From contig JAUPMA010000080.1 in assembly GCA_030836935.1 (NCBI GenBank), forward strand, positions 1 to 7,962: a DNA stretch of 7,962 nt, written 5' to 3'. The stretch is from Pseudomonadota bacterium. Lineage in GTDB: Bacteria; Pseudomonadota; Gammaproteobacteria; SZUA-229. The position numbers and the translations under genes were made by a program. The first letter of the stretch is position 1; every line of letters starts with the position of its first letter. Below, one piece after another: positions 1,557 to 2,852 of the stretch. The notes under the pieces were generated by a model. It had not been told where the DNA came from. It saw nothing but the letters and a program-made list of their open reading frames with translations, and did not search any database.

Positions 1557-1598
1557 GTATGCCAAGCAAAAAATAACCGACAAGTGAAGTCATTGCAG

Positions 1599-1606
1599 TC
1601 TTACAT
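1599..1606 (-). other. Putative left donor guide within the bridge RNA
   Basis: TCTTACAT on the + strand is identical to the sequence made when the element ends are joined (2933-2935 followed by 1541-1545), including the CT core. In transposase orientation the RNA would read AUGUAAGA and pair with the bottom strand of the donor junction. The match is 8 nt, so chance cannot be excluded on this site alone. Confidence 0.45.
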
Positions 1607-1687
1607 CCGGCCTGTTCATGGCAAATCTGCCTGGCCTCTATGCTATTCGCCGACGGGGCCCTATCTGAATAACGGGATTTTCTCCCA

Positions 1688-1697
1688 AGAGGACACA
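1688..1697 (-). other. Putative right target guide within the bridge RNA
   Basis: AGAGGACACA is the exact 10-nt inverse complement of the target flank at 1531-1540, ending precisely at the junction with the element. The RNA (UGUGUCCUCU) could pair with the target strand that reads AGAGGACACA, including the core dinucleotide. A GGGA/TCCC hairpin (1674-1686) lies immediately 3' of it in the RNA. Confidence 0.6.
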
Positions 1698-1753
1698 CGG
1701 GTTTGACCCGTCGCGGTTCGACCTGTTGTCGTGTATGTTTTACTTGCGCAATC

Positions 1754-1759
1754 GTGGTG
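1754..1759 (-). other. Putative left target guide within the bridge RNA
   Basis: GTGGTG is identical to the other target flank at 2936-2941, which directly follows the core dinucleotide. In RNA sense (CACCAC) it would pair with the opposite target strand from the guide at 1688-1697, as known bridge RNAs do. Six bases is short, so this site is the weaker of the two and relies on its position. Confidence 0.4.
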
Positions 1760-1820
1760 TTCGTTTTACCTCAAATCAATTTTATTTTGTGTTGCCAAAC
1801 ATCTTTTTTCCATCGCAACA

Positions 1821-2852
1821 TTAGGCTGCCACACGATAATCCTGCTGATGCGCGAGCAATGCCCAGGCCATGCGCGCCATTTTGTTGGCCAGCGCCACAA
1901 TCACTTTGTTGACGTGCATGCGTTGCAAACACTGCTCCACCCAGCGGTTGCCACTGGCCTGGCCGATTTTAATCCGGCGCTGGATGTGGCGCATCACCGC
2001 ACGCGCACCGTGAATCAACAAGCCGCGCACATAACCATCACCGCGTTTGCTGATGCCGAGTAATTTATCTTTGCCGCCCGACGAATGTTGTTTCGGTACC
2101 AATCCCAAAAAGGCCGCCAGTTGCCGGCCATTTTTGAAAACATGGATGTCACTGATCGTCGCTGCCAGTGCAGTGGCGGTGAGTAAACCGATACCCGGTA
2201 TTTGCGCTAAGCGCTGGCTCACTGGATTCGTCTGGTGCCATTGCTGCAATTGGTTTTCAATCATCTGAATGTGTTGATTCAGCGCATCGTGTGCGGTTTT
2301 TAATTCTGCCAGCAGGTGCCGCGTCAACATCGGCAAGGCATTGTCGCCATCTTCCAGCAAGCCCGGCAGCGCTTGCGCCAACACCTTAACGCCCACCGGC
2401 AGGCTGATGCCGTATTCGAGCAGCACGGCGCGCAAGTGATTATTCAAGGCCACCCGCTGCTGCACCAGTAATTGCCGCGCATGATGCAGATGCAGCACGG
2501 ATTGTTGTTCCGGTGTTTTGGCCACCACAAAGCGCATGTTGGGTCGTTGCACCGCTTCGCAAATCGCTTCGGCATCGTTGCGGTCGTTTTTGTTGCCACG
2601 CACATAGGGTTTCACAAAAGCCGGTGCCATCAACTTCACAACGTGACCCAAGCGACTGATTTCCCGATGCCAGTAATGTGCACTCATGCAGGCTTCTATA
2701 CCTACCAGGCACGGCGGCAGCCTGGCAAAATAACGCAACAGATCGGTGCGCTTGAGTTGTTTGCGTACAACCACATCGCCGTCTTCATTGATGCCGTGTA
2801 TCTGAAAGACATTCTTTGCCAAATCCAGACCGATTACGTTAATCTTGTTCAT
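1821..2852 (-). CDS. IS110-family (IS1111 subgroup) transposase / DEDD recombinase
   Basis: This is an intact 343-residue RNA-guided DNA recombinase, a normal length for the family. The N-terminal RuvC-like DEDD domain shows Asp10 (GLDLAKN), Glu53 (GIEACM), Asp90 and Asp93 (NKNDRNDAEA). A coiled-coil-like segment spans about 115-205. The C-terminal Tnp domain has a helix-hairpin-helix-like PGIGLLTATAL (219-229) and the serine-containing motif HSSGGK (256-261), whose Ser257 or Ser258 should be the catalytic nucleophile. The RGDGYVR segment (270-276) is also typical of IS1111 types. The start is ATG at 2852, preceded by a good Shine-Dalgarno (complement of 2861-2869) eight bases away. There is no frameshift or internal stop, so it is probably active. 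It lies antisense to the interrupted host operon. Confidence 0.96.
   Translation of the reverse strand: MNKINVIGLDLAKNVFQIHGINEDGDVVVRKQLKRTDLLRYFARLPPCLVGIEACMSAHYWHREISRLGHVVKLMAPAFVKPYVRGNKNDRNDAEAICEAVQRPNMRFVVAKTPEQQSVLHLHHARQLLVQQRVALNNHLRAVLLEYGISLPVGVKVLAQALPGLLEDGDNALPMLTRHLLAELKTAHDALNQHIQMIENQLQQWHQTNPVSQRLAQIPGIGLLTATALAATISDIHVFKNGRQLAAFLGLVPKQHSSGGKDKLLGISKRGDGYVRGLLIHGARAVMRHIQRRIKIGQASGNRWVEQCLQRMHVNKVIVALANKMARMAWALLAHQQDYRVAA

Follow-up and report, generated by a model that had tools for sequence, protein, structure and literature searches.

An IS1111-group insertion sequence within a dispersed palindromic repeat and its predicted bridge RNA, matched to the right half of the site

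Published IS1111-group elements with a seekRNA (ISEc11, ISPa11 and ISKpn4) encode a DEDD transposase with PF02371 and the motif GL-P----SG. They carry subterminal inverted repeats (sTIR) which, as a rule of the group, lie inside a 7-bp left and a 3-bp right extension, and they have a 3' non-coding region (PMC11187229, available part). According to the same account, the complement of the top strand comes first (5' slot) in the RNA of these elements, the reverse order being that of the IS110 group, and a promoter is formed at the joined ends. In the IS110 group, the bridge RNA of IS621 has a target loop and a donor loop, with a pair of core-containing guides in each loop, and the RNA is mostly encoded in the left end of elements with a short sTIR (PMC11208160, available part). 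Insertion into dispersed palindromes is likewise described: IS621 targets REP elements, ISPa11 targets a REP palindrome, and insertion sequences entering dispersed extragenic palindromes were surveyed by Tobes and Pareja in 2006 (PMC1525189), a work that predates the RNA and whose abstract names no repeat of the kind found here. REP targeting by such elements (PMC1525189; PMC11187229) and redirection via changes in one guide region, as in ISMch6 (PMC11187229), are already known from the parts of these papers at hand.

The DNA analysed here, referred to as the window, is a stretch of 7,962 nucleotides representing contig C54; the assembly is fragmented, with 338 contigs totalling 1.63 Mb, and 58% complete. 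The window element resembles ISEc11, ISPa11 and ISKpn4 in the features given above for these three, its predicted RNA resembles that of IS621 in its likely two-loop layout, and it resembles ISPa11, IS621 and the elements surveyed by Tobes and Pareja in its insertion into a dispersed palindrome. It differs from the three IS1111 elements in its target repeat and in a mismatched left guide, and its RNA is predicted from sequence. We assign a probability of about 0.9 to the reading that a single IS1111-group element lies inside a dispersed palindromic repeat and that its 3' region is the likely source of a bridge RNA (seekRNA) with two loops, with a predicted right-target guide matching at 10/10 and a left-target guide at 3/8 positions.

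The insertion sequence occupies 1541-2935 on the minus strand (1395 bp, ends placed with the published extension rule, 7 bp on the left and 3 bp on the right). Its left sTIR, ATGGACACCGCCC (minus strand, 2916-2928), lies 7 bp inside the left end, and its right sTIR, GGGCGGTGTCCAT (minus strand, 1544-1556), lies 3 bp inside the right end; the two agree at 13/13 bp. The core dinucleotide, CT on the plus and AG on the minus strand, was found at 1539-1540 on the right-target side and at 2934-2935 on the left-target side. An open frame at 1821-2852 (minus strand) encodes a DEDD transposase of 343 aa, within the IS1111-group range of 330-350 aa, with the Pfam domains PF01548 (E 3.3e-13) and PF02371 (E 4.1e-25). 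Its translation contains GLVPKQHSSG, corresponding to the IS1111 motif GL-P----S(T)G of the C-terminal domain, and the ISCro4 and IS621 transposases were the top matches in a PDB sequence search. Downstream of the gene a long non-coding region (1541-1820) follows, as is characteristic of the IS1111 group; the RNA predicted in the right end and the sTIR length of 13 bp set the element apart from the IS110 group (IS621 type). Transposase domains, sTIR and extensions thus bear out the IS1111-type assignment of the preliminary description. A DNA search of the own assembly (58% complete) found the window's copy only.

Relatives were collected by a scan of genome contigs (80 loci kept of 92 found) and by two whole-genome protein searches, which gave matches in 13 of 145 genomes (E up to 1e-60) and in 15 of 369 genomes (E up to 1e-95), the own genome being counted in both. 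Ends were set from inverted repeats for 51 of 70 elements (window included) and then for 20 of 43 more, the ends of L051 looking wrong in this second round. Mostly broken or partial loci were not given to the RNA model described below (L051, L068-L071, L073, L075, L077-L081 and L125). Both a model hit and ends were available for 68 entries (window included), of which 8 were dropped because their flanks were cut by contig ends. The first of each distinct slot pair among the remaining 60 with full flanks yielded 40 distinct elements; L093, with a weak hit and doubtful ends, was kept in the counts. Viral contigs contained one relative, L125, which stands outside the counts. Among the matches listed from a search of at least 5000 plasmid records all were below 60% identity, and when the non-coding region was searched as DNA against 54 genomes of the family, the only match was the window's own copy. 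The nearest relative found was L002 (JACRMO010000034.1, a Gammaproteobacteria MAG; transposase 70% identical), which has the same sTIR, right end TGTA, core AG, stem and left-donor slot. It differs in having another target and changed guides, its right guide matching at 9/9 and its left guide at 6/8 positions.

For RNA structure analysis, a covariance model was built from the target loops of 17 relatives, with the window left out; the training stretches were cut around the flank-matching right guide. These loops aligned nearly without gaps. The consensus fold consists of an outer stem, a block of CCN/NGG pairs and a hairpin that separates two open segments, and its conservation among the relatives is evident from double-sided changes in 13 of 15 predicted pairs. 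In the 14-pair version on which the model is based, 12 pairs were changed on both sides. Three of five measures were reached by 0/500 shuffles: 90.3% paired cells (57.6% in shuffles), 78 cells changed on both sides (24.8 in shuffles) and a covariation score of 0.827 (0.203 in shuffles). The remaining two were less clear, with 30/500 shuffles reaching the number of pairs changed on both sides and 48/500 that of pair types. When the 14-pair structure was slid to other registers, pairing was at most 44.5%.

In the window, the model hit 1638-1724 on the minus strand (51.1 bits, E 7.8e-15), the next-best hit having 10.9 bits (E 0.035); this segment is the predicted target loop and stem. Applied to 93 sources at E up to 0.1, the model matched in 86 (87 hits, L046 being hit twice), and L022, L026, L044, L076, L084, L086 and L091 had no hit. 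The hairpin between the two predicted target guides, GGGAGAAAATCCC (1674-1686, minus strand), covaries in the relatives. Since the folding energy of the window RNA was no better than that of its own shuffles (z -0.84 and -0.48), the case for the RNA is made by covariation. An Rfam scan gave 0 matches at gathering score. The hit of a model built without the window supports the earlier proposal of a bridge RNA in the 3' non-coding end.

The two slots were read by model position: the 5' slot carries, from the core onwards, the complement of the right flank; the 3' slot carries the left flank up to and including the core. Across the 40 distinct slot pairs (window included), the longest right-guide match averaged 6.6 with the own flank and 3.1 with swapped flanks, and the left-guide match averaged 5.3/7 and 2.1/7, respectively. 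The sum of right-guide matches was 264 against a maximum of 163 in 20,000 flank permutations of the 40 pairs, and the sum of left-guide matches was 212 against 123; because of their shared ancestry the relatives are not independent, and the permutation counts should not be taken as strict probabilities. Right-guide matches were shorter than 6 nt in 11 of the 40 elements. The result was similar in 21 held-out elements that were neither training rows nor shared the slots of any (window also left out), with 121 against a maximum of 92 for the right and 111 against 79 for the left guide. This set replaced an earlier one of 23 elements, in which the slots of L017 were the same as in a training row and those of L062 nearly so. 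Across elements, both target slots therefore covary with their flanks; in the window, the right guide alone agrees with its flank. The guide order in the relatives is the published IS1111 order; in the window the right guide is in the 5' slot, but the 3' slot matches at only 3/8.

The right-target guide of the window lies at 1688-1697 (minus strand). It is the exact reverse complement of 1531-1540 (10/10), and the match extends to 11 nt with 1687 against 1541. Could a 10-nt match at the junction be a coincidence, with no RNA made? The preliminary description had already judged the match unlikely to be due to chance. A right-flank match of at least 10 nt anywhere in the non-coding region occurred in 2/1560 swapped pairs of the 40 distinct elements, and the match of the window is located in the right-target slot that was predicted without the window. 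The model hit and the covariation of the slots contradict coincidence, which we regard as extremely improbable. The guide proposed at 1688-1697 is thus upheld, its slot following the flanks across the 40 elements with sums above all 20,000 flank permutations, as a covariation check suggested earlier had called for.

On the left side the agreement is poor. The left-target guide slot, TTATTCAG in RNA sense (1665-1672, minus strand), is 3' of the right guide and matches the left flank CACCACAG at 3/8 positions, or 5/8 if G-U pairs are allowed; CAG is the only matching stretch. Without the last core base the slot of the window matches at 2/7, a value as low being found among the 60 full-flank insertions only in L093, and the other 58 have at least 4/7. 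With G-U allowed, the window reaches 4/7, the same as three of the other 39 elements and more than L093, so that with wobble its left guide is at the low end of the range and not alone there. Only one half of the site is thus still matched by a readable guide: of the guide claimed for the current site, the right half stands (10/10) and the left half does not (3/8). As a separate observation, TATTCA of the left slot (1666-1671) recurs at 2940-2945, five bases further out, as if ACCAC were looped out. Matches of at least 6 nt between a 9-nt slot and the 14-nt left flank of another element were present in 19/1560 swapped pairs, and the displaced match may be a coincidence.

A different left guide had been proposed at 1754-1759 (CACCAC in RNA sense, minus strand), 5' of the right guide, which would give the site a full match in IS110-group order. 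The 6-nt identity between 1754-1759 and 2936-2941 (GTGGTG) does exist; it is no more than expected by chance, as 41% of swapped pairs have, at some place in the non-coding region, a match of at least 6 nt to the 16-nt left flank. Confined to the region 5' of the right-guide slot, such matches were little commoner with the own flank (12/40) than in swapped pairs (21%). The segment is outside the model hit (1638-1724), and the order with the left guide first is that of the IS110 group and of the published ISEc21 seekRNA, the reverse of the order in the IS1111 elements tested in print (PMC11187229, available part) and in the relatives. L002 differs at the position of 1754-1759, and nowhere in its non-coding region does it match its own left flank over 6 nt or more. 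The identity was therefore judged a chance match and the segment rejected as left-target guide in favour of the slot at 1665-1672; we consider a guide at 1754-1759 highly improbable.

The insertion site is a dispersed palindromic repeat, which is interrupted beside the right end of the element (1470-1540, with the right target at 1531-1540) and continues beside its left end (2936-2945, left target). The own genome contains 7 exact copies of CACCACAGAGGACAC and 8 with one mismatch, most of them belonging to palindromes with the pattern TTCACCACAGAGGACACAGAG...CTCTGTG...CTCTGTGGTGAA. With up to one mismatch, CACCACAGAGGACAC was present in 21 of 58 genomes (own included) with up to 54 copies in one; a reversed control pattern had at most one match per strand in any genome. 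All 7 exact CAGAGGACACA sites of the own assembly fall within repeat copies, and one CAGAGGACACA site, L101, showed a single palindrome arm in the stretch examined. Another palindrome of the same broad kind (GCAGAGGCGCAGAGTCACAGAGG...CCTCTGTGACTCTGTG) is uninterrupted and lies at 103-182 of the window, upstream of the DUF2201 gene. Contigs C180 and C420 of a genome from the same family (G004) contain the target repeat in tandem arrays with a period of approximately 165 bp. The literature searched, with most subscription papers and all of bioRxiv outside its coverage, contained no paper on this element or this repeat, and a search by the letters of the repeat returned nothing related.

The element is flanked by genes for a DUF2201/VWA protein and for a 373-aa protein without Pfam match. 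Because the repeat is multicopy, recombination between its copies after insertion could have rearranged the flanks, in which case the present left flank would not be the original target half. The flanking genes were adjacent without the element, with gaps of 3-213 nt, at all 19 loci inspected in relatives (drawn from 43 other genomes that carry the downstream gene; one of the 19 from the same genus), and the genome of the same genus has a related empty palindrome between them. These collinear neighbours rule out a large rearrangement as cause of the left mismatch. Flank rearrangement could survive only as a gene conversion confined to the repeat arm, and we consider it very unlikely.

Alternatively, a left guide that originally fitted the site was altered once the element had inserted, by point mutations or by recombination of the loop, so that it would now address a different, hybrid site. 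A matched ancestor is expected, as all but the window and L093 of the 60 insertions have at least 4/7. Natural redirection has also been published, with the bottom-strand region alone changed between ISEc21 and ISMch6 (PMC11187229, available part) and with both regions differing between ISEc11 and ISXne4, and TATTCA of the slot recurs in the left flank as described above. Such a history would require 5 of 8 positions to be altered without damage to RNA stems, right guide or transposase frame, and the composite address TTATTCAGAGGACACA had no site with fewer than 3 mismatches in the own assembly (58% complete). Later change of the left guide is possible and, in our estimate, rather unlikely. 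Because so many positions would have to be changed with the rest intact, we favour a landing by right guide and CAG: the long right guide, together with the core-adjacent CAG, most likely directed the insertion, the poor left match being tolerated.

The predicted left-donor guide, ATGTAAGA in RNA sense (1599-1606, minus strand), is located downstream of the target loop in the RNA region and equals the right end of the element, the core and one further base (8 nt matched). By regular expression, the left-donor slot was identical to the last four bases of the element in 32/40; by eye, the same match stands at a shifted position in 7 of the remaining 8, and in L039 one base is different. Since most element ends are TATA, this agreement carries less weight than that of the target slots. 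The right-donor guide slot, TAGCATAG in RNA sense (1638-1645, minus strand), was placed by eye from relatives, and agrees with the reverse complement of left end plus core at 5/8 positions (counted by eye).

Variation was also seen at cores and ends of the relatives. In L008, L011, L019-L021, L023, L024 and L089 the left and right cores differ in the second base (TA/TG; CA/CG). In these elements the left-donor guide has the right-side base; the left-target guide shares it in L008, L011 and L019 but has the left-side base in L020, L021, L023 and L024. L049 and L053 are the same element in the same target, with TG after the right end in one and not in the other. The 3' end of L021 has a tandemly doubled right end with two sTIR copies approximately 22 bp apart.

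A -35-like TTGGCA is present in the right end (1560-1565, minus strand). When the ends are joined (1560-1565 with 1541-1542 and 2932-2935), it is followed after 17 nt by the -10-like TAAGAT. The promoter score in the window was 9/12 for the joined ends and at best 8/12 in the integrated right end, a small gain. Scores of at least 9/12 were reached by the joined ends of 32/43 elements and by the integrated right end of 0/43 (two of the 43 with right flanks shortened by contig ends). In the circularised element, joining of the ends would thus provide a better promoter that may drive the transposase gene and the RNA.

The mechanism is likely that of IS1111 seekRNA elements. If the published behaviour of ISEc11 applies, the left mismatch would hinder re-excision of the window copy. 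In ISEc11, circles were no longer formed when target bases had been replaced on either side (PMC11187229, available part), and the copy is therefore predicted to excise poorly. Tolerance may vary, since the IS110-type ISEc21 is reported in the same source to move with as few as 3 matching right-side bases.

The locus provides one more readable address for a programmable recombinase, and the RNA model locates target slots without looking at the flanks. It also corrects the guide order for the IS1111 group, where a reader would expect the layout of IS621. The combination of a matched right and a mismatched left guide is a natural test of the share of each guide in landing and leaving. More speculatively, the locus may represent a natural half-addressed insertion, in which a single long guide brought about integration and the other was not required to match, leaving guide and address out of step; at present this appears unlikely. 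If true, bridge RNAs could acquire new targets guide by guide, through landings in multicopy repeats that depend on one side, and each landing would strand the copy until the second guide or the flank catches up.
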